Positions 3,784 through 55,237 of a DNA stretch of 64,000 nucleotides are shown piece by piece. Under the pieces are notes generated by a model. The model was not told the DNA's origin and made no database searches. It saw nothing but the letters and a program-made list of their open reading frames with translations. The position numbers and the translations under genes were made by a program. Origin of the DNA: Candidatus Magnetocorallium paracelense. Lineage in GTDB: Bacteria > Nitrospirota > Thermodesulfovibrionia > Thermodesulfovibrionales > Magnetobacteriaceae. The stretch spans positions 1-64,000 of the forward strand of contig JAREWP010000101.1 of the NCBI GenBank assembly GCA_029001845.1, given 5' to 3'. Positions within the stretch are counted from its first letter, which is position 1. The number at the start of each line of letters is the position of its first letter.

Positions 3784-3940
3784 AAAACAGCATTCAGCTA
3801 TCAGCAGTCAGCTGTCAGTCCTCTGTTTTCAATGTTTTGCACATTAACCGGTATATTCCTTTTTGGGTGAGTGCTGTTTTTGACGTAACGCTTTGATTTT
3901 TCTTAGCTGATTGCTGATAGCTGACCGCTTTTTTTTTAGG
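3784..3940. repeat. MITE-like inverted-repeat element, family A, copy 2
   Basis: Left end CATTCAGCTATCAGCAGTCA and right end GCTGATTGCTGATAGCTGAC are inverted copies of one another and match the other family A ends. The internal part is more diverged than in the other three copies. Together with the small ORF described next, it fills the 303-bp gap between genes. Confidence 0.7.
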
Positions 3941-3941
3941 T

Positions 3942-4086
3942 TCATACGATATCGTCATTGAGAAAATCGATTAACTTCTTGCGTATCCTATCAGCTTCCA
4001 TTGCATTTCTTTTTGTATATGCAGAGGCAGGCGTCAGATTCGGCCAAGTCGATTATTGATGAGTAGATACGATCAATATCTGTCAT
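3942..4086 (-). pseudogene. possible small frameshifted ORF coupled to the REC/HD-GYP gene
   Basis: An ATG at 4084-4086 overlaps the stop of the upstream regulator gene in an ATGA arrangement, as in translationally coupled genes. Its frame opens MTDIDRIYSSIIDLAES and stops after 31 codons. A shifted frame then gives a coding-like tail (KRNAMEADRIRKKLIDFL) that ends at 3942, exactly at the edge of repeat copy 2. One indel would join them into a protein of about 48 residues. It may be a small helical protein broken by a frameshift, a sequencing error, or chance. No family is recognised with confidence. Confidence 0.3.
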
Positions 4087-5621
4087 CTCTTGAGCTCAAT
4101 CAATGCGTCTACCACTTCAGGATCGAAATGTTCGCCGGATTTGCTTTCTATGAATTGGAGCGCAGCTTTTTTACTGTAAGGTTCTCCATCAAATCTATGG
4201 GAAATCAAAGTGGAATAAAAAACCGCCGCACTTACTATTCTGGCGCTCAATGGTATTTCATTACCTTTCAGTCCTCCGGGAAATCCTGTACCATCAAATT
4301 TTTCATGATGGTATTTGGCGATTATTCCGGCCATATGGAGAAAATTATTATCCATGACTTTATCGGCGGCTTCCAGTATAATTTGATTTCCAAATGAAGA
4401 GTGCTCCAGAAGAGCCTCCCACTCCTCTAATGTCAGTGACTCGGATTTTTTGATAATTTTTTCAGGTATCCCGATTTTAGCGATATCGTATATACTGCAG
4501 GCGGAACGTAACATATGCAAAAATTTTTCGTCAATCTCTTGTATGAATCTGCCTCTCTCAAAGAGCTTTTCTGCAATTTCGACAGCTGTCTTTCCAACAC
4601 CATTCGCAGGGTCACAGGGTCTGCCGGCATTCAGTTCGGCTATCCTTACAATGCCTTTCACTGCAGCATCTTTGATGTCATTGAAACGATTATTCAAATA
4701 TAAATTATTGAATGCAGCAGAAACATTGGAACAAAAGTATTCAAGAAGCTGCCTGTCCCACTCATCGGGTAAACCACACTTTTCCACATAAACGACGCTG
4801 ATTAGTTTGCTTTTACTTCTGAAAAAGACAATGCTTCGGTTATCGTAATACAAACACTCTTCGTTTTCACAGGCATTTTTAATGTCTTTTAATATATCGC
4901 TGCCAACAACATTTTCAACTTTATTGCCTGTATGTCTCTCGTACATGCCGGTGCCTGCCAGGATTATGAGTTCCTTATCACATTCTCCGGTGAGAAAGCC
5001 CGTGGTCTGGCAATAGAGAGCATCATTGCCACAACGGAGAATGGAGATTAATTGCTCAAGGATACCGGAAACAAAGTTTTCCATAGACTTCAGCTTGAAA
5101 AGAGAAGCGGAAGATTCAATAATTTTTTTCAATCCTCTTCTGCCTGTATCTATCGTGACAATGTCATTGTAGGCTCTAAGAGACGAAATTACTGAAGTAA
5201 AGAGCTTGTCGGCAGTGAGTTCATCCTTGGTTTTATAGTCGTTAATGTCATAATTGACTACGATATCCTCTTCAGGCGCCTGACCGGGCTGACCTGTGCG
5301 TAGGATTATTCTGACAAATTTGTTTTTTATCTCCTCTCTGATATGCTTAACAACTTTTAGACCTGCGCTTTCGTCCTCCATTACGACATCTAAAAATATG
5401 AGCGCCGTATCGGGGTTTTCCTCCATCAGTCTGATGGCTTCATTACCTGAATAAGCATTGATGAAGTGCAACGCTCTGTCTTCGAAGGTCAGTTTTCTTA
5501 AAGCCATTTTGGTTATATTATGAATACCTTCATCGTCGTCTACAATCATAACTTTCCATCTCTCTTTTTCAGTTGATTGCTCTCTCTCACTGGCGAATAT
5601 GATTTTATCCGAATCGGTCAA
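4083..5621 (-). CDS. response regulator: REC, DUF3369-like middle, degenerate HD-GYP domain
   Basis: The 512-residue protein has a receiver domain at about 22-150 with phospho-acceptor Asp78 in LIFLDVVMED, a GAF-like DUF3369 middle at about 155-310, and a C-terminal HD-GYP domain at about 335-510. HD-GYP proteins normally hydrolyse cyclic-di-GMP. Here several metal ligands are changed. The HD pair reads Tyr378-Asp379 (SIYDIAKIGIP) where the family has LHDIGKIGIP. The usual DVFDAL block reads AVFYSTL. The HHExxDGxGxP block (438-448) and H407 of LLEHSS are kept. It may bind rather than cleave its ligand. The receiver is closely similar to that of the divergent REC-PAS-kinase at 11290. It lies 280 bp after the histidine kinase at 5902, which is a plausible partner. 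Confidence 0.85.
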   Translation of the reverse strand: MTDSDKIIFASEREQSTEKERWKVMIVDDDEGIHNITKMALRKLTFEDRALHFINAYSGNEAIRLMEENPDTALIFLDVVMEDESAGLKVVKHIREEIKNKFVRIILRTGQPGQAPEEDIVVNYDINDYKTKDELTADKLFTSVISSLRAYNDIVTIDTGRRGLKKIIESSASLFKLKSMENFVSGILEQLISILRCGNDALYCQTTGFLTGECDKELIILAGTGMYERHTGNKVENVVGSDILKDIKNACENEECLYYDNRSIVFFRSKSKLISVVYVEKCGLPDEWDRQLLEYFCSNVSAAFNNLYLNNRFNDIKDAAVKGIVRIAELNAGRPCDPANGVGKTAVEIAEKLFERGRFIQEIDEKFLHMLRSACSIYDIAKIGIPEKIIKKSESLTLEEWEALLEHSSFGNQIILEAADKVMDNNFLHMAGIIAKYHHEKFDGTGFPGGLKGNEIPLSARIVSAAVFYSTLISHRFDGEPYSKKAALQFIESKSGEHFDPEVVDALIELKR

Positions 5622-5652
5622 ATTACCCTCCTAAATTGTTTAAGTATGAGTT

Positions 5653-5720
5653 TAAAAAACAGCATTCGGCAGTCAGCGATCAGCTGGCTGAAGGCTGATC
5701 GCTGACTGCCGTTTTTAGGA
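5653..5720. terminator. family A short form: perfect 18-bp hairpin, possible terminator
   Basis: The arms CGGCAGTCAGCGATCAGC (5667-5684) and GCTGATCGCTGACTGCCG (5694-5711) pair perfectly around a 9-base loop and are flanked by T runs on both strands. The unit sequence matches the ends of the longer family A elements, but without their ~100-bp interior. It could act as a terminator on either strand, lying between the histidine kinase and the regulator gene. Confidence 0.6.
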
Positions 5721-5760
5721 TGAATTGTGTGAAACTGTATTTAACGTAGACTCTAATGTT

Positions 5761-5902
5761 GTGTCAAGCATTAATTGACGTAAGCAATCTGTCATTTCGA
5801 ACGTAGCGAAGTGAAGTGAGAAATCTTAAACGGTGGGATAGAAGCTAACGGCTAAAGATTTCTCACTTTGGTCGAAATGACAAATCAGGCTTGACATGAC
5901 AC
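5761..5902. repeat. inverted repeat with TGTCATTTCGA ends
   Basis: TGTCATTTCGA with GTGAGAAATCTT (5790-5827) is repeated in inverse as AAGATTTCTCAC with TCGAAATGACA (5855-5881). An outer pair, GTGTCAAGC and GCTTGACATGACAC, brings the element up to the stop codon of the kinase gene. Similar TTTCGA...GAGAAATCTT repeats are common in many bacterial genomes. Confidence 0.6.
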
Positions 5903-7458
5903 TAATCTGTAATCGGTAGTTTAATAATAAAACCGGCGCCCTCTCCTTCAACGCTTTCACATGTAATCGTGCCTTTCATGCTCTGACTTACAAGATTATA
6001 TACAATATGAAGCCCCAGTCCGGTGCCGCCACTTCCACGCTTTGTTGTATAAAAGGGGTCGAATATCTTTCCAAGGTTCTCACGGGGAATTCCTTTTCCA
6101 TTGTCTCTGAGTATAATTTGCACTTGATCGCCGGTATTGGTGACATCAATACTTATAATACCATTCTCACCGTCGTCATATCCATGTATTAATGAATTGA
6201 TTATGAGATTTGTGATTATTTGAGCAAAGGCGCCGGGGTAGCTGTCAAGTATGATACTATCGGGACAGTTTATTTGAGTTACGATGGAAGTTCTTTTTAG
6301 TTTCGGACGCAAGCTCAAAATAATATCTCCAAGATACTCCTTGACATCGAATTTTCTTTTATCCCTGCTTGTCTGATCTGCAGAGACCTGCTTGAAGCTT
6401 TTTACCAGATCGGAGGTTCTGTTTAAATGCTGTAAAATAATATTACTGATTTCAGTCGCTTCTTCGAAATACTCTTCCAGGGCGGATCTGGTCATTTCGT
6501 TCTTTTCAAGCAAAGATTTAATTTTTGATGTTGTCTTCTTTAAATGGGAAGATGCCGTTACACCGATACCGACAGGTGTGTTTATCTCATGGGCGATTCC
6601 GGCCACTAACTGACCCAGGGAAGCCATCTTTTCCGATTCCACCAGTTGTTTCTGGCTGCTTTGAAGCTCTTTGTGGGCTTTTTCTATTTCATCAATCGTG
6701 TATTGCAGTTTATCTGACATTTCATTAAAAGAGAATGACAGATCTCCGATTTCGTTATTTATCGATACAGTCGAACGAGCCGACAAATCACCATTCATAA
6801 TTTCCATTGTCGTATTTCTAAGCATCAATATAGGTCTGGTTATTTGTTGTGCAAAAAGAAAAGCGCCTATGGCGCCAAAGGCAAGAGAAAAAAGGGCAAG
6901 AATCCCTATGGTCATATACATGGTTTTAACCTGCTTTTTATAGCTGTCTATAGATAAACCGATATGCAGCCATCCCCACTCTATACCTGACGATTCCAGG
7001 GGATAGGAGTAGTGAAAAACTTCACGGTCTACAAGAGGGTTAAAATATATCCTCCCCTTGTAATCCAAGTCGTAATCAGTGAGCCACTCAGGGTCGGGAG
7101 CGTCGCTTTGTGTCCACTCTTCTTTTGTGTGTATAAGTACAAAACCGTTGTTTCGTACAACAATAACATAGAGAATATCCGGATTTTTTTCTACAACTTC
7201 CATATTATGTGTGACGATAAAGCTGTATTCTCCTTTAATAATGGCGATACTGCATATCTGCGAGATCGAGGAAGAGATACTTTTAGCTTGTGTTACCAGG
7301 CTTTTTAAAATATTCTCTTGGTGTTTGGGGATGGTAAGTGCTACAAAGAAGGTGATTATAAAAAAAAGAAGAAAAAAGATAATTGCAAAAATTCGAGAGA
7401 ATATTCCAAACCGTCTCGAACCTGTTTTTGAAGATGTTGTTAAATGCTTGGATGTCAT
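5902..7458 (-). CDS. membrane sensor histidine kinase (periplasmic sensor, HAMP, HisKA, HATPase)
   Basis: The 518-residue protein has membrane segments at about 21-42 and 180-204 that bracket a ~135-residue periplasmic sensor. A HAMP domain follows (205-258), then a short coiled coil, then a dimerisation domain with phospho-acceptor His290 in [13 protein letters not shown]. The ATPase domain has N box LIINSLIHG, G1 DNGKGIP and G2 GGTGLGLHI. It is the last gene of a tight minus-strand run (TolC, two PhnD-like proteins, kinase) and begins 29 bp after the second binding protein. It may therefore read the occupancy of those proteins through its periplasmic domain; this is inferred from context. 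The likely phospho-acceptor partner is the REC/HD-GYP protein downstream. Confidence 0.85.
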   Translation of the reverse strand: MTSKHLTTSSKTGSRRFGIFSRIFAIIFFLLFFIITFFVALTIPKHQENILKSLVTQAKSISSSISQICSIAIIKGEYSFIVTHNMEVVEKNPDILYVIVVRNNGFVLIHTKEEWTQSDAPDPEWLTDYDLDYKGRIYFNPLVDREVFHYSYPLESSGIEWGWLHIGLSIDSYKKQVKTMYMTIGILALFSLAFGAIGAFLFAQQITRPILMLRNTTMEIMNGDLSARSTVSINNEIGDLSFSFNEMSDKLQYTIDEIEKAHKELQSSQKQLVESEKMASLGQLVAGIAHEINTPVGIGVTASSHLKKTTSKIKSLLEKNEMTRSALEEYFEEATEISNIILQHLNRTSDLVKSFKQVSADQTSRDKRKFDVKEYLGDIILSLRPKLKRTSIVTQINCPDSIILDSYPGAFAQIITNLIINSLIHGYDDGENGIISIDVTNTGDQVQIILRDNGKGIPRENLGKIFDPFYTTKRGSGGTGLGLHIVYNLVSQSMKGTITCESVEGEGAGFIIKLPITD

Positions 7459-7487
7459 AATTAAAGCTGAAATTGTAAATGTTTTTT

Positions 7488-8423
7488 TTAGTTTTTCATT
7501 TTAAGATCATTATACTCATGAACAAGAGATTCCAAGGTTTTCACATCGGATTCATGTAAAGGCGGAAATCCTTCAGATTTATAGAGCGTTAAAAACTGCC
7601 TTCCCCTCGGTGTATCTCTGACTTGCAAAAAGGCGTCCATAATTCTCTTTTTATGTTTATAGGATTTTCTGAAAAATGAGATATATTGAGCCACTTCCGG
7701 AGAGGCGGCTAGTGTCATGAGTTTTTTTCCAACCTGGGGATTCAGTTCTTTCATGGTGTTAAAGGCCAAATCAGTGACAACGCCAAGGCTAACCTCTTTA
7801 AAAAAAAGAGCCAGTATGATTTTTGAAAAAGAATCTTTCTCGATGATATTACTAAAAAAAATGTTATGCTCCTCAAATTCATTTCGGAGAAGGAGAAGAT
7901 TTAAAAATACGAGACCAAGGTCATTTTCTCTTTTAACCGCCAAGGCGCCGCCTTTTAGTTGTGCAATATTTGAAATATTGGTATTAACATTTGTTAAAAG
8001 AAGATATCTGATAGTCTTTTTACCGCCTCTCATGTTGCCATAGGCCAACTCATACTCTGCCAGACGATTCCTGATATTGATATAATCAACCGGCGCCGTG
8101 CTCCCTATATCGATTTTACCTGTGTTGAAATCATTGATTAAGAGATTTAAGTCATCATAAAAATGCATTTCCGCTTTAATACCGAACCTGGCGGCCAGTT
8201 CTTTGGTCCATATCTCCATAGCTATTTTAGCATCTGCCAGCACAATACCACTGATATGTTTTGTAGAGAGCCCGATAACAATGCGAGGTTCATCAACCTC
8301 TTGCGCATTGGCGCAGGTCAGGTCTGAAAAGAGAAAAAAAAACCATAGAAATACGAGAACAAGGCAAGCTCTTGCACTTACCGGGCTATTCTTTTTTTTT
8401 ATTCTTAAGTATTCGATATTCAT
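7488..8423 (-). CDS. PhnD-like periplasmic binding protein, paralogue B
   Basis: The 311-residue precursor has a signal peptide (hydrophobic VLVFLWFFFLFSDLTCANAQ, cleavage near 40). A two-lobed binding-protein fold of the phosphate/phosphite/phosphonate (PhnD, TIGR01098-like) type follows. Typical family features are the early IGLSTKHISG strand, FNTGKIDIGSTAPVDYI, the LKGGALAVKRENDLG hinge region and a late PRGRQFLTLYK. It overlaps the end of the preceding paralogue by 38 bp, so the two are translated together. No ABC permease or ATPase gene is nearby, which argues for a sensory rather than a transport role. The ligand is not known; oxyanions are the family norm. Confidence 0.8.
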   Translation of the reverse strand: MNIEYLRIKKKNSPVSARACLVLVFLWFFFLFSDLTCANAQEVDEPRIVIGLSTKHISGIVLADAKIAMEIWTKELAARFGIKAEMHFYDDLNLLINDFNTGKIDIGSTAPVDYINIRNRLAEYELAYGNMRGGKKTIRYLLLTNVNTNISNIAQLKGGALAVKRENDLGLVFLNLLLLRNEFEEHNIFFSNIIEKDSFSKIILALFFKEVSLGVVTDLAFNTMKELNPQVGKKLMTLAASPEVAQYISFFRKSYKHKKRIMDAFLQVRDTPRGRQFLTLYKSEGFPPLHESDVKTLESLVHEYNDLKMKN

Positions 8424-9360
8424 TGTAAAGATTCTCTGTGGATTTTAAATCAGAAGGTAAAAGAGGGGCCAAGGTGTCGATCTTAAAAAGAATTAAAAAC
8501 TGTCTTCCCCTGGCGCTCTCATGTATTTTGGAACACTGGTGTTTTACTTTTTCTTTGTATTTAAAATCTTTATGAAAAAATCCCAGGCGCTCAACCAAAT
8601 CCGGAGAAATCTCAATGGCCTTAATTCTCTTTCCAACCTGTGGATTGAGTTCGGACATAATATCAAGAGCGATGTCAGTTGCAATTCCTGCATCGACCTC
8701 TTTAAAAAAGATCGAAAGGATCACTTGAGAGAAGTGATCCTTTTTAAGTGTTTTAGCAAAAAAGGTATCGGCCTCTTCCATTTTGTTTCTCAATAGAATT
8801 GTATTTAAAAAAAGAATGGAGAGGTCGTTTCTTTTGACTAATGCTACTTTTTTGCCCTTTAGTTCTTTAATATCGGTTATGTCTGAGTCGGATGATACAA
8901 GCAGCATATATTTAACGCTCTTTTTCCCGTCCCTCACAAATCCGATACCGGGCTCGGATTCAATATTCTCTTTAATCTTTAGATATTCCAGCCCCGATGC
9001 ACCACCCATATCAATTTTTCCTTGGTTAAAGTTTTTTACCATAGAATCAAGATCGTTGAAAACATGGGTTTCACTTCTGAAACCGACTTCCTTGGCGAGC
9101 TCCTTTGACCAAATCTCCATTGCAGTTAAGAGATCCTCTTCGCTGACATCTCCTAAAACAAGTTGCTTAATAATATAACCTAAGGAGAATCTGGGTGGGT
9201 CGACCATTTCGGAGATTCCGGCCTCACCAGGAACTGATTTGGCGTTAAGGTACTCTATAGGAAAAAAGAGGAAGAGCCAAAAGAGTAAAAACAGAACCCC
9301 TTTTTTTGTCCGGTTTTTATCGCTTCCGTTACCATCACTATAAATTAGAACAGAAATCAC
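8386..9360 (-). CDS. PhnD-like periplasmic binding protein, paralogue A
   Basis: The 324-residue precursor has a hydrophobic N-terminal segment (LFLLFWLFLFFPIEYLNAKS) after a short basic leader. It then has the same fold as its downstream neighbour. Parallel blocks include FNQGKIDMGGASGLEYLKI, ELKGKKVALVKRNDLSILF, FKEVDAGIATDIA, LNPQVGKRI and SARGRQFLILFK. Most of the length aligns without large gaps, so the pair arose by tandem duplication. The start overlaps the TolC-like gene's stop by four bases (ATGA). The ligand is not known. Confidence 0.8.
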   Translation of the reverse strand: MISVLIYSDGNGSDKNRTKKGVLFLLFWLFLFFPIEYLNAKSVPGEAGISEMVDPPRFSLGYIIKQLVLGDVSEEDLLTAMEIWSKELAKEVGFRSETHVFNDLDSMVKNFNQGKIDMGGASGLEYLKIKENIESEPGIGFVRDGKKSVKYMLLVSSDSDITDIKELKGKKVALVKRNDLSILFLNTILLRNKMEEADTFFAKTLKKDHFSQVILSIFFKEVDAGIATDIALDIMSELNPQVGKRIKAIEISPDLVERLGFFHKDFKYKEKVKHQCSKIHESARGRQFLILFKIDTLAPLLPSDLKSTENLYNEYRILKNKKKE

Positions 9361-10775
9361 TCGCTTATCGCTTTTACAACCTTATTACCAATTACAAAGT
9401 TAAGTTGTGCAAGTTTTTCGGCATGCTCATAGAGAGCTCTTAAATGTTGAGCATTAATAAAAGACTCCAGTAATTGCGCTTTAATAACGTCCTCTGTCTC
9501 TACTAACTCGTGCTGATAGGCTCGATTATTGAGCTTCCTGCTCTCAAACGCTGCGTTAAGGGCTTCCTCTGTCGCGCTGATCTGACCTTTAGAACGTCTT
9601 ATTTGCAGGAATATGCTCTTGATCTGAAGGGCCAACCCCTCTTTGAGAAGTACTTCCTGATGCTTTATTTTCTTTAAACGCGCTTTTGCTTCATTTATCT
9701 CGTTAACTGTTCGAAGCCCATTAAACAATGGCAGTTCGAATGCAAGACCTATGCTCCAAGACCTTTTATTATTGCTGTTAACCAATCCGTCGTTATAGGA
9801 ATTCTCGATATGTGAAAGATTGCCTGTAAAAGCTATCATAGGGAAATGGCCGCTCCTGGCTTCTTTTATCTTTGCTTCCGTTGCCTCTATACCCAGTTGA
9901 AGACTCTTCCAGTCAGGATTGAATCGATATGCTTCAGTCACAAGATTTGACATCTCTCCATGAAAGGGGTTATAGGGGATATTGTTTTCCAAAGGCGTTA
10001 CCGTGCTGTTCCACTCCAGTCCCATGGCGTTGGCCAATGCTGATTGCGACAGTTCTTCGTTTGATTTCAACATTTCAAGCATCGAGCGCATGCTCGATAC
10101 AATAACCTGTGTTTCCAGGTAATCGGTCTTTTTCACACTGCCTGAACCGGCTTTGTAAAGACTTTCTGTAAGCTCGAGCGTTATTTCAAACCGTTCAAGT
10201 GTTTCCTGACCTATTTTTTTGAGTTCCGATGAAAGTACGGAACCGTAATACATGCGCTTGACATCGTAAACAACCTGAAGGTCTGTTCGTCTCAATGTTT
10301 CGCCGGCGACTTTTACTCCTATCTCAGCCTGTTTTGTAATAGCGGAGCGTTTTCCGAAAGTATAAACAGGGTATACAAGGTCCATAGAGGTGAAAAGCGT
10401 GTCTCTGCCCATGAGTTTGATATCTCTCTCGTCTATCGGGATGTCCATGCCAAAGAGATTAAAGCTTTCCGATGGGAATATAAAGTTCGGGGCCTCGTCT
10501 CTCCTGGAAGCCGATGAGACCATGGTTAGTTGAGGCCAATAGGAAGATAGGGCCTGCCTGTGCTGCGATTCGGCTATTTCAATGGAAGCAAGGGATACCT
10601 GACGATGTCTGTTTTTTTCGAGAGCGATGGTCAGGCATTCGTTAAGTGACAGAGTAGGGGAGTGATCCTTTTTGCTTTCTTTTTTTAGTTCTTCCGCTCC
10701 TGTTATGGTAATAGTAAATGTGTTCAACAGTAAAAATAATACAGCGCATATAACATATCCAGATGACTTAAACAT
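9357..10775 (-). CDS. TolC-family outer-membrane channel protein
   Basis: The 472-residue protein has a signal peptide (about 1-27) and two OEP repeats: LSLNECLTIALEKNR at the start of the mature protein, an alpha-helical barrel portion with ELSQSALANAMGL, a second half beginning LVTEAYRFNPDW, and a late SIGLAFELPLFNG. TolC proteins form the outer-membrane end of tripartite export systems. No inner-membrane pump or membrane-fusion protein is encoded nearby. It heads the operon that continues with the two PhnD-like proteins and the sensor kinase. A ribosome site (AAAGGAGGAACAT) precedes the start. Confidence 0.85.
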   Translation of the reverse strand: MFKSSGYVICAVLFLLLNTFTITITGAEELKKESKKDHSPTLSLNECLTIALEKNRHRQVSLASIEIAESQHRQALSSYWPQLTMVSSASRRDEAPNFIFPSESFNLFGMDIPIDERDIKLMGRDTLFTSMDLVYPVYTFGKRSAITKQAEIGVKVAGETLRRTDLQVVYDVKRMYYGSVLSSELKKIGQETLERFEITLELTESLYKAGSGSVKKTDYLETQVIVSSMRSMLEMLKSNEELSQSALANAMGLEWNSTVTPLENNIPYNPFHGEMSNLVTEAYRFNPDWKSLQLGIEATEAKIKEARSGHFPMIAFTGNLSHIENSYNDGLVNSNNKRSWSIGLAFELPLFNGLRTVNEINEAKARLKKIKHQEVLLKEGLALQIKSIFLQIRRSKGQISATEEALNAAFESRKLNNRAYQHELVETEDVIKAQLLESFINAQHLRALYEHAEKLAQLNFVIGNKVVKAISE

Positions 10776-10799
10776 GTTATGTTCCTCCTTTTAAAGTTT

Positions 10800-11259
10800 G
10801 TAACGATTCAGGTATTCAGTCTATACACCTAACCCGGTAAGCGGTCACCAAACAGGTTTAAGGAATTTCGAAGAAATTCCCTTCAAGTCTCCTCTCCCCC
10901 TTCAAAGGGGGAGAGGGAGTTTAAAACGCTGCTTTAGCAGCTTAACCCGGATTATCACAGATTGAGGTATAATTTGAAACTCCGGCTCCGTTGAATTTTC
11001 GTAATGCTACTAGTTTAGTTTATTTTCAAGGCTATTGTAAATAACAGGTGTCAGGACTCTGTATATTTAAAGAGGTTATCTGAGATTTTCATATTATCAG
11101 TGATTTGAAGGATTTCCCGGTAGCACCTGCCAATAATGACAGTGTTTTGTTTGTGGATTACATTCCTTTTAGGTTGATTTTTTGCAGCTCTTCTGATATT
11201 CTTTATATTTCGTAACGAATCAGGTTTATTGCCTTCAGCCTTGTACCTGAGTAGTTACG
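10800..11259. repeat. repeat-rich 514-bp gap with GTAAC-type ends (family B) between divergent operons
   Basis: GTAACGATTCAGG at 10800 and CCTGAGTAGTTAC at 11247-11259 are inverted relatives of the ends of the elements at 14120-14265 and 20504-20655. A second inward copy, GTAACGAATCAGG at 11212, makes a mini-element of 48 bp with the same right end. The G-rich palindrome copy 2 lies inside. Promoters for the two divergent operons must lie in this gap, but I could not pick them with confidence. Confidence 0.55.
10886..10920. repeat. G-rich palindromic repeat, copy 2
   Basis: CTCTCCCCCTTCAAAGGGGG and the following GAGAGGGAGT form a strong palindrome, nearly identical to copy 3 at 37218-37252. 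Confidence 0.75.
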
Positions 11260-11289
11260 ATAATTTATTAAAAGACGAAGAGGAGCACC

Positions 11290-13101
11290 GTGGAATTACT
11301 TAAGTTCGCCGACGAGATAGAAGAGGAAAACGGTCATAAAGTCGATTCATGGAAGATAATGATCGCCGACGACGAGCAGGGGATCCATGATATTACAAAA
11401 ATGGCCTTAAAAGATGTGTTTTTCAAAGGCAAGGACCTGAGTTTTGTTAGTGCTTATTCCGGCAGCGAGGCAATGCAGTTAATTAAGGATAATCCCGATA
11501 TCGCTCTGGTGCTTTTGGATATTGTCATGGAAGACGACGACAGCGGGCTCCAGGTGACGAAGTATATACGTGACACATTACAGAACAGATCGGTGAGGAT
11601 AATTTTCAGAACCGGACAACCGGGATATGCACCGGAAGATGAAGTTGTTCTCAATTATGACATAAACGACTATAAGACTAAAAGCGAACTGACAACTGAA
11701 AAACTGTTCACTGCCGTTATATGCGCAGTACGGTCATACAGCGAACTGATAGAAAAAGAAGAACTTGTCATATCCAAAGATAAGTTGCTGTTTTCACTGG
11801 ATTTATTAAAAAGAGCTGTGGAAACAATGGATTTGGGCATAACAATCACAAACATTGAAGGCGACATTATTTATATGAATAAAGCAGAGGCGCAAATGCA
11901 CGGTTACTCGGCAGATGAATTAATTGGCCGTGACGTGAGTGTTTTGGCCCCGTTAAACAGAAAAGATACATTACCTTTAAAAGAGATGCTTAAAAACGAT
12001 GTGTGCAAGCGCGAGAGCGTAAATATGCATAAAAATAAATGGTCTTTTCCTGTTCAGTTGATGTCTACTGTTGTTCGAAACGACGAAGAACTGCCTATTG
12101 CGATTATAACCAGTTGCGAAGACATTACAGAGCGGAAACGAATGGAAGAAGAGCTGAAACAGATTAACGAGAATCTTGACGAACTCGTAAGGGAGCGTAC
12201 AAGTCAGTTAGCTGATGCGAATGAACAGTTAAAACAGGAGATTGTGGAGCGTAAGAAGGCGGAAAATAAAAAACAGGAACTTTTCGAAAAACTGGAACAT
12301 ACCCATGAAGAACTGAAGCAAAGTCAGGATCAGTTGATACAGTCCGAAAAAATGGCTTCACTTGGACAATTGGTTGCCGGTATCGCGCATGAGATTAATA
12401 ATCCTTTAGGATTTGTCAATTCCAGTATGGGGAACCTCCAAAAATTTATATCCAGAATCTTTGGTCTGCTCGACGCTTATGAAGAAATAGAACTCCCCAA
12501 AGAGAGCAGAACTGCCATAATAAGGCATAAAGAGGAGATAAATTTTGATTATGTCAAGGAGAGAGTCCTTATAATTATAGAACGATCAAAAGACGGCATA
12601 GACAGAATCAAGAAAATTATTCTGGACTTAAAGACATTTTCAAGATTAGACGCTGCTGATTTAATCGATACCGATATCAATGAATCGATAGATATTACGC
12701 TAAACATGCTGTATCATGAATTTAAGGACAGAGTCGAAATTGTTAAAGAGTACGGTGATATTCCTCTTGTCAGGTGCTATAGTGCGAAATTGAATCAGGT
12801 GCTTATGAATCTCCTGATAAACGCCTGCCAGGCGATAGATGGTAAAGGAGAGATCAGAATAAAAACGGCTGTCAAAGACGATACGATCAGGATCGATATC
12901 AGTGATACAGGTAAGGGAATACCGGAAGAACTGCAAAAAAAGATATTCGACCCCTTTTTTACGACAAAACCTGTTGGAAAAGGCACCGGTCTGGGCCTTT
13001 CAATCAGCCATAAAATCGTCAGGGAACACAAAGGAGAACTCCTTGTTCACAGTGTGGAAGGGGAGGGTACTACCTTTATTATTAAGATACCTGTGAAATG
13101 A
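11290..13101 (+). CDS. hybrid REC-PAS-histidine kinase
   Basis: This 603-residue cytoplasmic protein begins with a receiver domain (about 20-150, phospho-acceptor Asp77 in VLLDIVMED). It continues with a PAS domain (about 170-285), a long coiled coil (285-355), a dimerisation domain with His367 in [13 protein letters not shown], and an ATPase domain (N box [10 protein letters not shown]1 DTGKGIP, G2 [10 protein letters not shown]). The receiver shares long stretches, including FRTGQPG and [10 protein letters not shown], with that of the REC/HD-GYP protein at 4083. I use a GTG start preceded by GAAGAGGAG at suitable spacing. It is divergent from the TolC-PhnD-kinase operon. Likely it takes a phosphate at its receiver and relays to an unseen regulator. 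Confidence 0.85.
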
Positions 13102-13126
13102 AGAAGTAAAGTAATGTCTCATAAAG

Positions 13127-13158
13127 CACACGTTCAGGTCCGAAAACCTGAACGTGTG
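13127..13158. terminator. hairpin terminator between convergent genes
   Basis: CACACGTTCAGGT and ACCTGAACGTGTG pair perfectly over 13 bp around a six-base loop. It lies between the ends of the convergent kinase and PstS-like genes, so it could serve both. The following T run is weak. Confidence 0.65.
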
Positions 13159-13231
13159 TATCTATTCATCTTTATTCGGTACGTTACATAACCAACCTGG
13201 CAAACCGGTATGAAATAACGAAAATTTTGAT

Positions 13232-14077
13232 TTACATCCTTCCTTTATAGGCGGATTTCAGATTCATCCCCTCAGCTAAATTAACCGTACCCTGAGCAGC
13301 GATAACCTCCTGCCCGTACGGGCTTAACGCATAATCTATAAATTGTCTGACTTGGTCGCTCATTTCCTGCCTGGTTACGATATAAAGAGGGCGGTAAAAA
13401 GGATAAGTTCCGGCCATGATGTTCTCCTTTGTAGGTGCGATTCCGTCGACTTTTAATCTCTTAATTCCTTTACGTCTTTGGGCGCTTGAGTTACCGCTTG
13501 CTCCAAAAGCATTGATGTCTCTTGAAACCTCCACTTCAATGGGGCCGGTGCTTTTTCTAACTTCAGCGTTGGAAGTAAATTCCTGGTCGGGATTTCCAAA
13601 CACCAGCTCTCTTAGTGTCAATCCCACGCCGCTGATCTTTCCCTTTCTGATCAATAATTTTATAGGGGCCTCAGGAGCTTCCAGTTCTTTCCAGTTTGTA
13701 ATCGCGCCTGTAAATATATCTTTTATCTGTTGAGTCGTTATATTATCGACAGGGCTGTCTTTATGAACAATAAAGACAATGGCGTCCCATGCAACATGGT
13801 GCATAAGTGTGTTGTTCTCTTCCGGTCTGTCCAGTTTGAATCTGCAGGCGCCGCCTATATCGGTCTTAGCTGCCGCTGTAAGTCTTATTCCCTTTGTTGC
13901 ACCGCCTCCCTTCAGGTTAATCGTTGTTCCGGTTTTAGCTTTATATGCAGAGGCCAGTTCCTTCATAAAAGCTTTTTTGGAAATTCCGCACCCTGCCCAC
14001 TGAAGCTCTTCAGCCTCTGCGCAAAGAGGAAAGAGAAACAAAATTAATGAAAAGAGTAAAAGTCGTTTTTTAATCAT
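13232..14077 (-). CDS. PstS-like phosphate-binding periplasmic protein
   Basis: The 281-residue precursor has a signal peptide (about 1-22, ending SLILFLFPLCAEAEE). The mature protein has a PstS-type fold: ELQWAGCGIS, AYKAKTGTTINLKGGGATKG, DIGGACRF, then IVFIVHKDSPVDNIT and IKDIFTGAITNWKEL, the block that is diagnostic of the family. A late SPYGQEVIAAQG is also typical. The start is set by a strong AAGGAGGT. No pstCAB genes are present, so as with the nearby PhnD-like proteins it may sense rather than feed a transporter, or serve a pump encoded elsewhere. Confidence 0.85.
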   Translation of the reverse strand: MIKKRLLLFSLILFLFPLCAEAEELQWAGCGISKKAFMKELASAYKAKTGTTINLKGGGATKGIRLTAAAKTDIGGACRFKLDRPEENNTLMHHVAWDAIVFIVHKDSPVDNITTQQIKDIFTGAITNWKELEAPEAPIKLLIRKGKISGVGLTLRELVFGNPDQEFTSNAEVRKSTGPIEVEVSRDINAFGASGNSSAQRRKGIKRLKVDGIAPTKENIMAGTYPFYRPLYIVTRQEMSDQVRQFIDYALSPYGQEVIAAQGTVNLAEGMNLKSAYKGRM

Positions 14078-14382: not shown

Positions 14383-15234
14383 TTAGATTTCTTCTAACTC
14401 CTCCATTGTTAACCCCGTAAACCTGAGAATTTTATCTTTCGGCTCTCCGCCTTTTTTCATCTCCCTTGCTATTTCCAGGTCTTTCTCTCTTCTCCCCTCA
14501 ACTTTACCTTCAACTCTCCCTTCTTCGTAAGAGGTATCGATAACTCCTTTCAGGTCTCTGTATACTTTCAGGCTCTCTTCATATTCAGCCAACTGCTTCT
14601 CGTCAAAACCGGCTATCTCGGCTCTCCTGAATCCCTGTAAAAATATCTCCTCCCTGAATATATCAGGTATCTTATCGAACTCTTCAAGATGCTTTAAAAA
14701 ATAGAGCCACTTGTCAAAGTGCGTTTCCAGCGCCTCTTCGTTCTTGTTAAACCTGGGCATCTCTATAAATATATAAGTCAGTTTATCGTAAAAAACCTGA
14801 CAATACTGATCCTTCAACTGTACATTGCTGATATAACCCTTCTTCTCCCTGTCGTCATCAAAAGTAAAGTCCAGTAGGGCCACACAGTAGATCGGAGTCA
14901 GCTTAAAATCCCAGTCCTCCTTTTCAGCCTGCTCCCTGATGGGAAAGGTCGTATAAAACACTGCCCTGTCTTTAAAAAATCTTATCTTCGCCTTCTGCAT
15001 TTCAACTATAAATCGGTCACCCCTCTCGCTCTCGCAGTGTATATCAAAGATGGCTTTTCTCTCTGTTTCGATATTCCCCTGCTGCTCCAAATTCTTAAAG
15101 GATAAATCTTTGATTCTGTGTACGGGAGGCAGGAGCTCATTGAGAAAATCTATCAGTAAATCCTTACTCGCCTCCTCTCCAAAGAGCTTCTTAAAGCCGA
15201 AATCGGTATAGGGGTTTATATATTTCGCCTTCAT
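14383..15234 (-). CDS. Rpn/PD-(D/E)XK nuclease family transposase-like protein
   Basis: The 283-residue protein starts with YINPYTDFGFKKLFGEEASKDLLIDFLNELLP, split here only for description: the YTDFGFKKLFG block is the hallmark of the PF12784/Rpn family. The nuclease core follows with DIHCESERGDRFIVEMQ, which supplies the D...E-x-Q residues of the PD-(D/E)XK site. Repeated GKVEGR-type motifs and a final LTGLTMEEL-like tail are also usual. Such proteins promote DNA cleavage and recombination in vivo. A decayed fragment of a second copy lies at 23090-23262, so the gene has been mobile or duplicated here. Confidence 0.85.
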   Translation of the reverse strand: MKAKYINPYTDFGFKKLFGEEASKDLLIDFLNELLPPVHRIKDLSFKNLEQQGNIETERKAIFDIHCESERGDRFIVEMQKAKIRFFKDRAVFYTTFPIREQAEKEDWDFKLTPIYCVALLDFTFDDDREKKGYISNVQLKDQYCQVFYDKLTYIFIEMPRFNKNEEALETHFDKWLYFLKHLEEFDKIPDIFREEIFLQGFRRAEIAGFDEKQLAEYEESLKVYRDLKGVIDTSYEEGRVEGKVEGRREKDLEIAREMKKGGEPKDKILRFTGLTMEELEEI

Positions 15235-50754: not shown

Positions 50755-51085
50755 TTGGTTTAAACCACTACCTAAGGTAGTGGTACCCTAAAGAGGTTCA
50801 AGCGTAATAGTAGTTATAATGTACCTCCCTGAAAGGTATCGAGAAAGGGAGGTATAAATGAAAAGCAATTTAGTAAGGTATCACACACGATATATGAATG
50901 TAAATACCACAGAGTATTTTGTCCCATATATCGTTATAAGATATTTAAGGGAGAGAGTCAGGCAGGATATCTATAGATTCTGTCGTCAAAAGGAGCTAGT
51001 GGAAGTAGAGGAACTGAGCGTTCAAGCGGATCACATCCACCTTTGTAAAATGACGTATGAGTTAGAAGCAATATTTGGACATTAG
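50755..51085 (+). mobile_element. IS200/IS605-type remnant
   Basis: A hairpin CCACTACCTAAGGTAGTGG at 50766-50784, in the position of an IS200/IS605 subterminal hairpin, precedes a 75-codon frame from 50858. Its product includes KSNLVRYHTRYMNV and QADHIHLC, the HUH-type histidine pair. This is like the N-terminal half of Y1 transposases (TnpA). The catalytic Tyr half and right end are missing. A second hairpin CCTCCC...GGGAGG sits at 50823-50851. The fragment ends at the kinase gene's start. Confidence 0.6.
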
Positions 51086-51090
51086 TGATT

Positions 51091-53175
51091 ATGGATATTA
51101 ACACAAAATGTAGTATAGATATTTTAGAGTTAACGACTGATGAACAATTGACAGATACATCAACGGTATCTGAGTTGCAAATACTCTCTACTGTTCCTCC
51201 TTTCGTAAGTAGAAGATCAAATAATTTCAATAAAGCTCCTGTAGCTCAATATGCTTTACCGTTAAACAGAAGATCAAAATATAGTATTACACACTGTTAT
51301 GATGTCGCAACTATTACTGAAAATACAGCGACATTTAACAAACAAGAGAATAATCAGGTAGAGGATTTCCTATATGAAGCAACTATTACTTACAATGCAA
51401 ATTTAGTAATGCCAGATAAAGACAAAGAAGATTGTGCAAACGACATATTTTTCACTAATGATACATTTACAATTGATGATCGTGTTGATAAAGAAAAAAT
51501 AAAACAGCATGTTGAAAACACTAAAGATATAATTTTGACTCCTTCTACTAATCGTTGTTTTAATAATAAAAAGAATTATCCTTCAATTGAACAAATATTA
51601 AGTACTATCGGTCGTTATAAATCACTAACTTTTATTGCTGAAGGAGGTCAAGGTAAGGTATATAAAGCGTGGGATTCTGAACTTGATCAGGAAGTTGCAA
51701 TAAAGATATTGCCTGAATCTTACAGCAAAAACAAGTTACTTATAGATAACCTTAGAAAGGAAGTTGTCATATCTAGACGCTTACGTTATCCGGGCATTGG
51801 TGCAGTACATGATTTGATAACTTTCACAAATGGTTTAATAGGTTTTGTTATGGATTATATTGAAGGTTGTAGCCTTAGCTCATGGCTTAAACAAGAGGGA
51901 AAAAACAGATGGAAGTGGACAGAGAAATATTTAGAAATGCTGAGAGTGCTTTCCTATACTTTATCTGTTGCTCATAATGAAAATATAGTGCACAGGGATA
52001 TCAAGCCAGGAAATGTCATGTTAAAAGATGGAAAGTTAGAAACCCCGGTTCTCCTTGATTTTGGTATAGCACTACCATCTATTGATTCCCCTGATAATAA
52101 AAAATGCGGTACTTTTCATTATATGGCTCCTGAACAGTGGGAACGACCTCATGAAGTTGACGGTCGATCCGATCTTTTTGCTTTCGGAATTTTAGCTTAC
52201 CTGATATTCACAGGAAAGCTTCCTCCTTGTTCTTTATACAACTTCCCCAAAATACGTAAAGTACCATGTGTTCCTGTTGAAGAAATTTCACCTCTATATA
52301 ACTATAATGCCAGAGTGCCAGCTTCTCTTGATCAACTGATTCGTTCTCTTCTATCATATGAGCCAGAAAACCGTCCTTTGTCAGCTAATGAACTGTATAA
52401 TCAATTGAAGGATGTATCCATAATAGACGAGCAAGAGGCCCTGTTTAAGCATTTAGCTAAAAAAAATAAAATTTCTAAGGATGGATTTGTTACAATTGCA
52501 AAGGGTCATTTTTACTTAGGCAGTGAGAGAAAGGAGTGTGGCAATGCTGAACGCCCCAAAAGACGCGTCTTTCTGTCAGAATACAGGATCAGCATAAATT
52601 TGATAACCAACCGTGTGTATAGAGAGTTCTTGGAAAGTACTGGCTTTCCTTTTCCAACACCTCCGTGGTTGGATCATTCGGTAATAGGGAAGGATGAACA
52701 TCCAGTGGTTGGAATTACTTGGGATGAGGCTATGACGTTCTGTCAATGGATGGGAGGTTTACTTCCAACTGAGGCGCAGTGGGAAAAGGCAGCTAAAGGA
52801 ATTGACAGCAGAACCTACCCATGGGGAGATGAATTTAGTAATACAAAAGCAAATATTGATTTTTTCCATAATGCTACTACATCTGTAGGCTTGTATCCTG
52901 AGGGAGCGAGCCCATACGGGTGTTTGGATATGGCTGGAAATGTAAGGGAGTGGTGCTTGGACTGGTATGATCCTCAGAGCTATTCGAAAATACCAATGGG
53001 TGGAAAAGATCCTCAAGGGCCTTTTGAAGGTAAACATAAGGTGATGAGAGGCGGTGGATTTCGGAGTTATAGAGATGAGGCGCGATGTTCTTTTCGAGGA
53101 CATGCATCTGTAGACACACGTGAACCGGATATAGGTTTTCGTATTGTATTAAGTAATGAGGAGTTAAATGACTGA
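51091..53175 (+). CDS. Ser/Thr protein kinase fused to a formylglycine-generating-enzyme-like domain
   Basis: This ~694-residue protein has a Thr-rich, apparently disordered N-terminus (about 1-165), a Hanks-type kinase domain (about 170-440) and a C-terminal sulfatase-modifying-factor/FGE domain (about 465-692). The kinase keeps GGQGKVYKA, the VAIKI lysine, HRDIKPGN, DFG and APEQW, so it should be active. The FGE part includes GLLPTEAQWEKAAKG, YPWGDEF, GCLDMAGNVREW and DIGFRIVL. FGE-like domains are fused to kinases in several bacteria (Pkn1 type) and may bind ligands rather than oxidise cysteine. The gene overlaps the GspE gene by eight bases. I prefer the ATG at 51091 over a GTG at 51085. 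Confidence 0.8.
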   Translation: MDINTKCSIDILELTTDEQLTDTSTVSELQILSTVPPFVSRRSNNFNKAPVAQYALPLNRRSKYSITHCYDVATITENTATFNKQENNQVEDFLYEATITYNANLVMPDKDKEDCANDIFFTNDTFTIDDRVDKEKIKQHVENTKDIILTPSTNRCFNNKKNYPSIEQILSTIGRYKSLTFIAEGGQGKVYKAWDSELDQEVAIKILPESYSKNKLLIDNLRKEVVISRRLRYPGIGAVHDLITFTNGLIGFVMDYIEGCSLSSWLKQEGKNRWKWTEKYLEMLRVLSYTLSVAHNENIVHRDIKPGNVMLKDGKLETPVLLDFGIALPSIDSPDNKKCGTFHYMAPEQWERPHEVDGRSDLFAFGILAYLIFTGKLPPCSLYNFPKIRKVPCVPVEEISPLYNYNARVPASLDQLIRSLLSYEPENRPLSANELYNQLKDVSIIDEQEALFKHLAKKNKISKDGFVTIAKGHFYLGSERKECGNAERPKRRVFLSEYRISINLITNRVYREFLESTGFPFPTPPWLDHSVIGKDEHPVVGITWDEAMTFCQWMGGLLPTEAQWEKAAKGIDSRTYPWGDEFSNTKANIDFFHNATTSVGLYPEGASPYGCLDMAGNVREWCLDWYDPQSYSKIPMGGKDPQGPFEGKHKVMRGGGFRSYRDEARCSFRGHASVDTREPDIGFRIVLSNEELND

Positions 53176-55237
53176 ATCTGGCAATTCAAACTCTTTAGAG
53201 AATGGTAATAAGGAAAATAGTAAAATGCTTTCCGAGAACTCTGAAAAAACACTTTCATACGATAATATAGAAACAATAAGCTCAAATGAAGAGGAGAGAA
53301 TAAGTCCATATAGTTTCCATGAAGAGAGAGGTTTAAATAAAGAAGAAGATAACACAATCACCAGCCCATATATTAATGAGGAAACAGTTACACACACACC
53401 AAAAAAAATCGCAGCCTCTGTAAAAGAGGAAACTAAGGCCGTTAGCAGACCACATAAGTTGAAGCAACCTGAATCTCCACGTTTGCCTGATTTTCAAAAA
53501 AGAGAAAATCATTTTGCAAGTTTTTTGTTAGAAGAAAAAATAATAGATAGACATGATCTTTTACTTGGTCTATATAAAACAGCACAGGACCAGGGTACAT
53601 CGTTATTTCAAGTAATCTTTGAATCAGGCAACATGCTTATGTCTGATTTTTATAAAAAGGTTGCATATTGGCTGAATTGTAAATACTTCGAATCTGCTGA
53701 TGAAATTCTATCTTTAGTGGAATTTCCACTTGGAAGAGATCATGCAGTGTTTCTACGCTCGCAGACTCTTCCGATAGTCCCAGCATGGGAAAAGGGAGGG
53801 AGTAATGGAGCTATAAATCTCGTTTCATCCAATCCATTCGATTTAAACATGTACGACTTCATCTCACAGCATCTGAAAGGGTACCCTTTGATCTGGCATT
53901 TTGGAAATCCGACAGCTCTTAAAAATGTTGTACAGCGTCTGAGCGTAACGGCATCGGCATTAAAAGATGTAAAAGAAGAACCGTTAAAAATAATAGAGTT
54001 CACAGATGAAAATGAAGAGTTTTTGTCCCTTAATATTCAAGAGGCTGATGTTCCTACAATGATTAATTGGTTTATTTACAGGGCAGTAAAAGGAAGAGCT
54101 TCGGATGTACATATTGAACCAGGCGAAAGATACATGAGTGTAAGAGTACGTATTGATGGCGTGTTACAAGAGGAGTACATGCTTCCAATGGAACTTCATC
54201 CAGAGGTTACATCACGTATTAAGATTCTCTCTGAGATGAATGTTGCAGAGAAGAGGTTGCCCCAAGACGGGCGTTTTGGGGTTAGGATTAGTGGAAACTC
54301 TATAGACCTTCGCGTTTCGACTTTCCCTACTGTGCGTGGCGAAAAAGTAGTTCTCCGTCTTCTCGAACAGAGTGCGCTCCATTTTTCGCTTGACAGCATA
54401 GGGTTTCAGGTTGGTGATCTCGAGCGTCTTAAAAAACGTATCGCAGCACCCTATGGTATGATTATCATATCCGGCCCCACTGGAAGCGGTAAGACCACTA
54501 CTTTATATTCGGCCATAAACAGTTTGGATGTATCGAGGTTGAATGTAGTCACTGTCGAAGATCCTGTGGAATATCGATTGACCGGAGTGTATCAGTTACA
54601 GGTAAAGGAAAAAATCGGCCTTACGTTCGCCTCTTCTCTAAGAAGCATTTTGAGACAGGACCCGGACGTTATACTGGTAGGCGAAATTCGCGACAGTGAG
54701 ACTGCCGAAATTGCCGTTAGAGCAGCTCTTACGGGACACATAGTTTTATCCACTCTACATACGAATGATGCTGTAGGAGTTATGGCTCGCTTGTTAGATA
54801 TGGGCATCGAACCCTTTCTTTTGGCCTCTGCAATGAGCATAGCTATGGCTCAAAGACTGGTTCGAGTAATATGCGAGATGTGCAGAGAGACAATATCGGG
54901 CAAAAAGGTGGTCAGAGAGTTGCAAAAAAAGGGAGTTACTAAAAAACAGCTCAACGATTTGAAAATTGAGATAGATGTGGATAATCAATATGAGGCAGGC
55001 AGAGGCTGCTCTCATTGCAGGGAGACCGGGTATTACGGACGCAGGGCAGTTTTGGAATTGTTTGAAGTCGATGAAGAGATAAAAATGGCTATGCTTGAGA
55101 GACCTTTTAATGAACCTAAGATAAGGGAGCTTGCGAAAGCTCAGGGGATGATCAGCTTAAAGGATAATGGTCTTTTACTTGTAGAGGAAGGGGTAACAAC
55201 CATTGAGGAAGTCATCCGCCTCCTTGTGGAGCTTTAG
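53168..55237 (+). CDS. GspE/PilB-type secretion ATPase
   Basis: The 689-residue hexameric ATPase has an acidic, Ser/Thr-rich N-terminal stretch (about 1-110) that may be a kinase target, an N1-like domain (ADEILSLVEFPLGRD; about 115-260), then the ATPase. This has Walker A GPTGSGKTTTLY, the Asp box VEDPVEY, Walker B ILVGEIRDSETA and the His box GHIVLSTLHTNDA. A tetracysteine zinc motif (CEMCRETISG, CSHCRETGY) lies before the C-terminus. It powers pilus or pseudopilus assembly. It overlaps the kinase gene before it and the GspF gene by one base after it. Confidence 0.9.
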   Translation: MTESGNSNSLENGNKENSKMLSENSEKTLSYDNIETISSNEEERISPYSFHEERGLNKEEDNTITSPYINEETVTHTPKKIAASVKEETKAVSRPHKLKQPESPRLPDFQKRENHFASFLLEEKIIDRHDLLLGLYKTAQDQGTSLFQVIFESGNMLMSDFYKKVAYWLNCKYFESADEILSLVEFPLGRDHAVFLRSQTLPIVPAWEKGGSNGAINLVSSNPFDLNMYDFISQHLKGYPLIWHFGNPTALKNVVQRLSVTASALKDVKEEPLKIIEFTDENEEFLSLNIQEADVPTMINWFIYRAVKGRASDVHIEPGERYMSVRVRIDGVLQEEYMLPMELHPEVTSRIKILSEMNVAEKRLPQDGRFGVRISGNSIDLRVSTFPTVRGEKVVLRLLEQSALHFSLDSIGFQVGDLERLKKRIAAPYGMIIISGPTGSGKTTTLYSAINSLDVSRLNVVTVEDPVEYRLTGVYQLQVKEKIGLTFASSLRSILRQDPDVILVGEIRDSETAEIAVRAALTGHIVLSTLHTNDAVGVMARLLDMGIEPFLLASAMSIAMAQRLVRVICEMCRETISGKKVVRELQKKGVTKKQLNDLKIEIDVDNQYEAGRGCSHCRETGYYGRRAVLELFEVDEEIKMAMLERPFNEPKIRELAKAQGMISLKDNGLLLVEEGVTTIEEVIRLLVEL

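Follow-up and report, generated by a model that had tools for sequence, protein, structure and literature searches.

Gene content and operon structure

Two PhnD-fold periplasmic binding proteins encoded beside a TolC-family channel and a membrane histidine kinase, with no importer genes, raise the question of what such proteins bind and whom they serve. The genes in question lie in a stretch of 64,000 nucleotides from Candidatus Magnetocorallium paracelense (contig JAREWP010000101.1), here called the window. An earlier note had read the block as a sensory system for phosphate, phosphonate, phosphite or arsenate-like oxyanions with an export link through TolC. The gene content and coordinates that it gave were borne out, the domains being found as described at each position:

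4083-5621, minus strand: REC-DUF3369-HD-GYP response regulator
5667-5711: terminator-like perfect hairpin of 18-19 bp with a T tract, between the kinase and HD-GYP regulator genes
5902-7458, minus strand: membrane histidine kinase (periplasmic domain at ~45-180, HAMP, HisKA, HATPase)
7488-8423, minus strand: PhnD2, second PhnD-fold binding protein (PF12974, 80 bits, cut-off 27)
8386-9360, minus strand: PhnD1, PhnD-fold periplasmic binding protein with a signal peptide (PF12974, 92 bits, cut-off 27)
9357-10775, minus strand: TolC-family outer-membrane channel (OEP; PF02321, 158 bits, cut-off 22)
11290-13101, plus strand, divergent: REC-PAS-HisKA-HATPase kinase (REC-PAS-kinase)
13232-14077, minus strand: stand-alone PstS-like (PBP_like_2) binding protein

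The TolC, PhnD1, PhnD2 and membrane histidine kinase genes form a tight minus-strand run with TolC as the first gene; TolC shares 4 nt (GTGA) with PhnD1, the two PhnD genes overlap by 38 nt, and 29 nt separate PhnD2 from the kinase. The REC-PAS-kinase gene is divergent from TolC, with 514 nt between them. These four genes can be considered an operon. The HD-GYP regulator gene lies 280 nt beyond the kinase and past the terminator-like hairpin. This spacer carries the perfect hairpin with its T tract as well as further inverted repeats, so the HD-GYP gene possibly forms a unit of its own. On either side of this gene (window 5667-5885 and 3784-3934) lie clusters of hairpins, perfect or nearly so, that share similar CAGTCAGC/TGATAGC motifs and are possibly a small palindromic repeat element.

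All three binding proteins attributed to the block are present and two of them belong to the operon, but the PstS-like gene lies outside it. The reported lack of an ABC permease or ATPase was confirmed among the ~25 window ORFs scanned, and the genome contains no PhnE permease above the cut-off (best 35.5 bits vs. 216.7). Elsewhere in the window (51085-55237), a fusion of a protein kinase with an FGE-sulfatase domain precedes a type II/IV secretion ATPase.

Conservation of the gene order

A search for the TolC-PhnD-PhnD-kinase order in other genomes, as the earlier note had proposed, recovered it exactly on contig C159 of genome G755, where the kinase gene is cut by the contig end. G755 came from a 395-genome sample of the phylum of G441, a Desulfobacteraceae metagenome-assembled genome. 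A third genome, G184, encodes TolC, one PhnD and a kinase; TolC is 49% identical to that of the window in both genomes. The recurrence of the same order in unrelated genomes indicates that this gene neighbourhood is more than chance. None of the TolC loci in the window, G184 and G755 includes an adaptor, pump or importer gene. Within the operon TolC is conserved best, the operon-linked copies of G184 and G755 being 48-50% identical to the window TolC, compared with 28-30% for the PhnDs and 32-37% for the kinase sensor domain across these loci. The HD-GYP regulator was not found in the G184 and G755 operons, both contigs stopping at or just past the kinase.

The two PhnDs belong to a narrow clade that a profile search of the order recovered as five copies in the same genome and in G184. 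Besides G755, no member was found among the 395 genomes of the G441 phylum, the 398 genomes of the phylum of Marinobacter or 50 kinase-hit genomes. The sample around G455 gave three matches at ~1e-26, of which the one checked (L139) retains TTA and the pocket His and falls outside the clade. Because the clade was found in three genomes only, the conserved linkage rests on few cases. In a tree its members group together at 100/100, with long branches flagged, and the pairs of the window and of G755 are placed in separate supported groups, suggesting that each pair arose by its own duplication.

The window TolC type was matched in G755 only among 26 genomes of the class of G755. Plasmids yielded only distant TolC relatives (all <60% identity, and ~19-27% among the matches listed) and no match to PhnD1, and no viral relatives were found. 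A TolC-PhnD-kinase system was likewise not found in the open-access literature. Two of the clade copies in the same genome stand alone, without kinase or transporter neighbours (L102, contig C4, 3437-4408 and L104, contig C28, 4204-5145; ~50-58% identical), and could be partners of the window kinase in trans.

The sensor domain and its association with PhnD

The periplasmic domain of the kinase has no Pfam match. Its AF2 model, built from four sequences (pLDDT 76), has a long helix and a sheet in a single Cache/PAS-like arrangement and resembles the Cache domains of WalK and Tlp3. In the genome, this sensor domain is strongly matched in two kinases only (3.5e-127 and 1.5e-126; next 1.8e-17), and both directly adjoin PhnDs of the clade, the second pair (contig C59) having no TolC. 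The remaining kinase modules vary by locus, with HisKA in the window, HisKA_2 at C59 and PAS-HisKA-REC in G184. Retention of the sensor with PhnD across different kinase outputs suggests that the two make contact. More broadly, the genome contains 21 PF12974 matches, many of them beside kinases, and a search of genome contigs with the kinase returned mostly relatives of the kinase core, few of which were associated with binding proteins.

The PhnD-fold proteins lack the anion-binding pocket

PhnD1 and PhnD2 are 41% identical. An AF2 model of PhnD1 (pLDDT 89) matches ArrX (Z 25.3) and AioX (Z 24.3) most closely, followed by HtxB, PtxB and BstB (Z 23.3). Two Tyr, a His and a Ser-Thr-Ser loop coordinate the anion in PtxB and PhnD, HtxB having Phe in place of the His (PMC5700983), and the AioX pocket (Tyr88, Cys106, Tyr131, Ser161, Ser163, His192 and Asp210) uses that same side plus Cys106 (PMC5908839). 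PhnD1 has L104, V149, N178, D179, L180 and F210 where the pocket has Y, Y, S, T, S and H, respectively, and PhnD2 shows the same loss, the pocket His having become Phe in both. Across 29 aligned proteins, each of the eight clade members is missing both Tyr and the His, and the Ser-Thr-Ser loop is intact in none of them, whereas the other 21 proteins mostly retain the first Tyr (17/21) and the His (19/21). The substitutes vary, with no replacement conserved between clade members, and the loop of the clade copies in this genome is one residue shorter than in most relatives. The only Cys of PhnD1 is C276 and PhnD2 has none outside the signal peptide region; neither has a mature Cys at an AioX-like site. 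Both proteins also score below the cut-offs of TIGR03431 (54.8 and 40.6 bits vs. 261.1) and TIGR01098 (70.4 and 44.3 bits vs. 112).

With the pocket residues and the AioX-like Cys missing, sequence comparison makes a phosphate- or arsenic-type ligand unlikely for PhnD1 and PhnD2, and by the same evidence the operon ligand is probably not phosphate-like. The proposed sensory system thus survives as a permease-less binding-protein/kinase unit kept with TolC elsewhere, but not with phosphate, phosphonate, phosphite or arsenate as the ligand of the PhnDs. A PhnD-fold clade without an anion site also cautions against literal reading of “phosphonate-binding” annotations.

The PstS-like protein

The PstS-like gene faces the REC-PAS-kinase gene in convergent orientation, and its product was set aside as a member of the system for want of linkage. 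It scores below the TIGR02136 cut-off (140.9 vs. 206.6 bits) and its phosphate loop reads SGV in place of SGT when aligned to 4q8r. It is the only one of the three binding proteins that could still bind an oxyanion, albeit with atypical motifs. A PDDEXK_2 family transposase-type gene (window 14383-15234) adjoins it and may be the trace of a mobile element. In a member of the Magnetococcales, a weakly similar PBP_like_2 gene precedes and overlaps a kinase with the same core (44%; L095, 3-2776), which hints at a sensory role for PstS-like proteins as well.

Regulators and signal output

The two regulators had been described as having similar receiver domains, and those of the HD-GYP regulator and the REC-PAS-kinase are indeed 56% identical over 144 aa (E=7e-56). 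The HD-GYP regulator is the only protein of the genome with a DUF3369 domain. Its HD motif reads YD, and alignment to 4mcw places a Val at the metal-ligand Asp of the SDVFDAL stretch. As Vibrio cholerae HD-GYP proteins without an intact HD motif are inactive (PMC4212101), these two changes suggest that c-di-GMP hydrolysis has likely been lost.

In Pseudanabaena, kinases with the same core (47-51%) directly precede regulators with GGDEF output, the receivers of which are 53-56% identical to that of the REC-PAS-kinase and 44-53% identical to that of the HD-GYP regulator. A Marinobacter relative of the kinase (36% core) adjoins a REC-DUF3369-GGDEF-EAL protein (L028, 5089-7410). These associations make the two similar receivers the probable targets of the window kinase.

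Outer-membrane partners of PhnD-kinase loci

TolC channels are familiar as the exit ducts of pumps, and the distant PDB kin of the window TolC are SilC, CusC and OprM. Two further PhnD-kinase loci of the same genome open with another kind of outer-membrane protein. On contig C46 (L108, 6510-14153), a run comprising a TonB-dependent receptor, a PhnD, an ABC_sub_bind protein, a hybrid kinase and a REC-HD-GYP regulator follows the plan of the window operon. On contig C18 (L107, 7188-11388), a probable porin, recognised by eye as a beta-barrel and having no family match, accompanies a PhnD gene that abuts the gene of a kinase with a core 55% identical to that of the window. By analogy, the recurrence of a TonB receptor or porin at PhnD-kinase loci favours a ligand-supply role for the outer-membrane protein. 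The export link proposed for TolC competes with ligand entry or exchange, which the lack of a linked pump and the sister loci fit equally well, and TolC may be the outer-membrane gate of the sensor and not necessarily an exporter. It can be read as an entry gate for the ligand, as an output exporter with pumps elsewhere or as a structural partner.

Extending this, we tentatively suggest that a pump-less TolC, two PhnD-fold proteins and a Cache-type kinase make up a trans-envelope sensor complex for a non-oxyanion ligand, within a wider pattern in which a TolC, TonB receptor or porin is built into binding-protein/kinase modules; we regard this as a speculative proposal. If true, a pump-less TolC kept with a sensor in distant genomes would be a testable case of a channel taking part in signal perception.

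Proposed mechanism and alternatives

We consider it probable that the genes form an envelope sensory operon that works like AioX/AioS/AioR with a different ligand. A solute would enter the periplasm, possibly via the TolC-type channel at the head of the operon, and would be bound by one or both PhnD-fold proteins acting as sensors rather than transport partners. We predict that the Cache-like periplasmic domain of the kinase serves as the docking site of the loaded PhnD and that the kinase then phosphorylates the similar receivers of the REC-DUF3369-HD-GYP regulator and the REC-PAS-kinase. As metal ligands of the HD-GYP domain are lost, the domain likely gives its output by binding or allostery rather than by hydrolysing c-di-GMP.

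The more serious alternative, although clearly less probable, is an efflux-stress sensor, in which the PhnDs detect a periplasmic toxin and the regulated output is TolC, which would team up with pumps from other loci to expel it. The higher conservation of TolC (48-50%) than of the PhnDs (28-30%) is consistent with this, as is its relationship to efflux channels, and the several other OEP genes in the genome mean that pumps probably exist elsewhere. Yet an adaptor or pump gene is missing near TolC in all three loci, and a TonB-dependent receptor or probable porin occupies the equivalent place at related PhnD-kinase loci. Family membership (PF12974) and the top fold matches (ArrX, AioX, HtxB and PtxB) speak for PhnDs with an altered pocket that still accepts phosphate, phosphonate, phosphite or arsenic oxyanions, more so as HtxB itself shares the Phe for His substitution (PMC5700983). 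We think such a sensor improbable, given that the Tyr pair and His are lost in 8/8 members with no intact Ser-Thr-Ser and no conserved replacement, and that the mature Cys for arsenite is missing. Least credible of all, and in our view very improbable, is that an ABC importer encoded elsewhere uses the PhnDs as spare binding proteins, their link to a kinase being incidental. PF12974 is mostly an importer family and the lone copies on C4 and C28 have no kinases, but the genome has no PhnE-type permease over the cut-off and the partnership with the kinase sensor is conserved in a genome sampled from another phylum. The sensory operon is taken to be real, an AioXSR-like system with TolC and two pocket-less PhnDs.

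Comparison with known systems

The tetrathionate and thiosulfate sensors TtrS and ThsS also tie PhnD-like sensing to a histidine kinase. These proteins carry the PhnD-like part and the kinase in one chain, whereas the window PhnDs are separate from it and in tandem. Closer in organisation are the AioX/ArxX/ArrX-S-R arsenic sensors, in which a PhnD-fold protein without importer genes is encoded beside a membrane histidine kinase and a regulator (PMC5908839). The window system differs in lacking the pocket residues, in having two binding proteins and in including TolC in the operon. No arsenic oxidoreductase was found among the flanking genes scanned, and the regulators are of the REC-DUF3369-HD-GYP and REC-PAS-kinase types, not of the AtoC or CitB/FixJ class found with AioXS.

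The importer binding proteins PhnD, PtxB and HtxB (PMC5700983) share fold and Pfam family with the window PhnDs, which have neither the STS-H/Tyr pocket nor a permease and ATPase. The sterol-binding protein BstB (PMC10942540) is similar in combining a PhnD fold with a non-classical ligand, and is among the good structural matches (Z 23.3). Unlike the window proteins, it works with the RND-type BstA and the lipoprotein BstC and has no kinase (PMC10942540), and by analogy we would take the likeness as a lead on ligand chemistry only. Finally, the HD-GYP regulator has the REC-DUF3369-HD-GYP domain order of VCA0210 of V. cholerae, but VCA0210 is an active c-di-GMP phosphodiesterase (PMC4212101), whereas the window regulator has lost the HD motif and another metal ligand.
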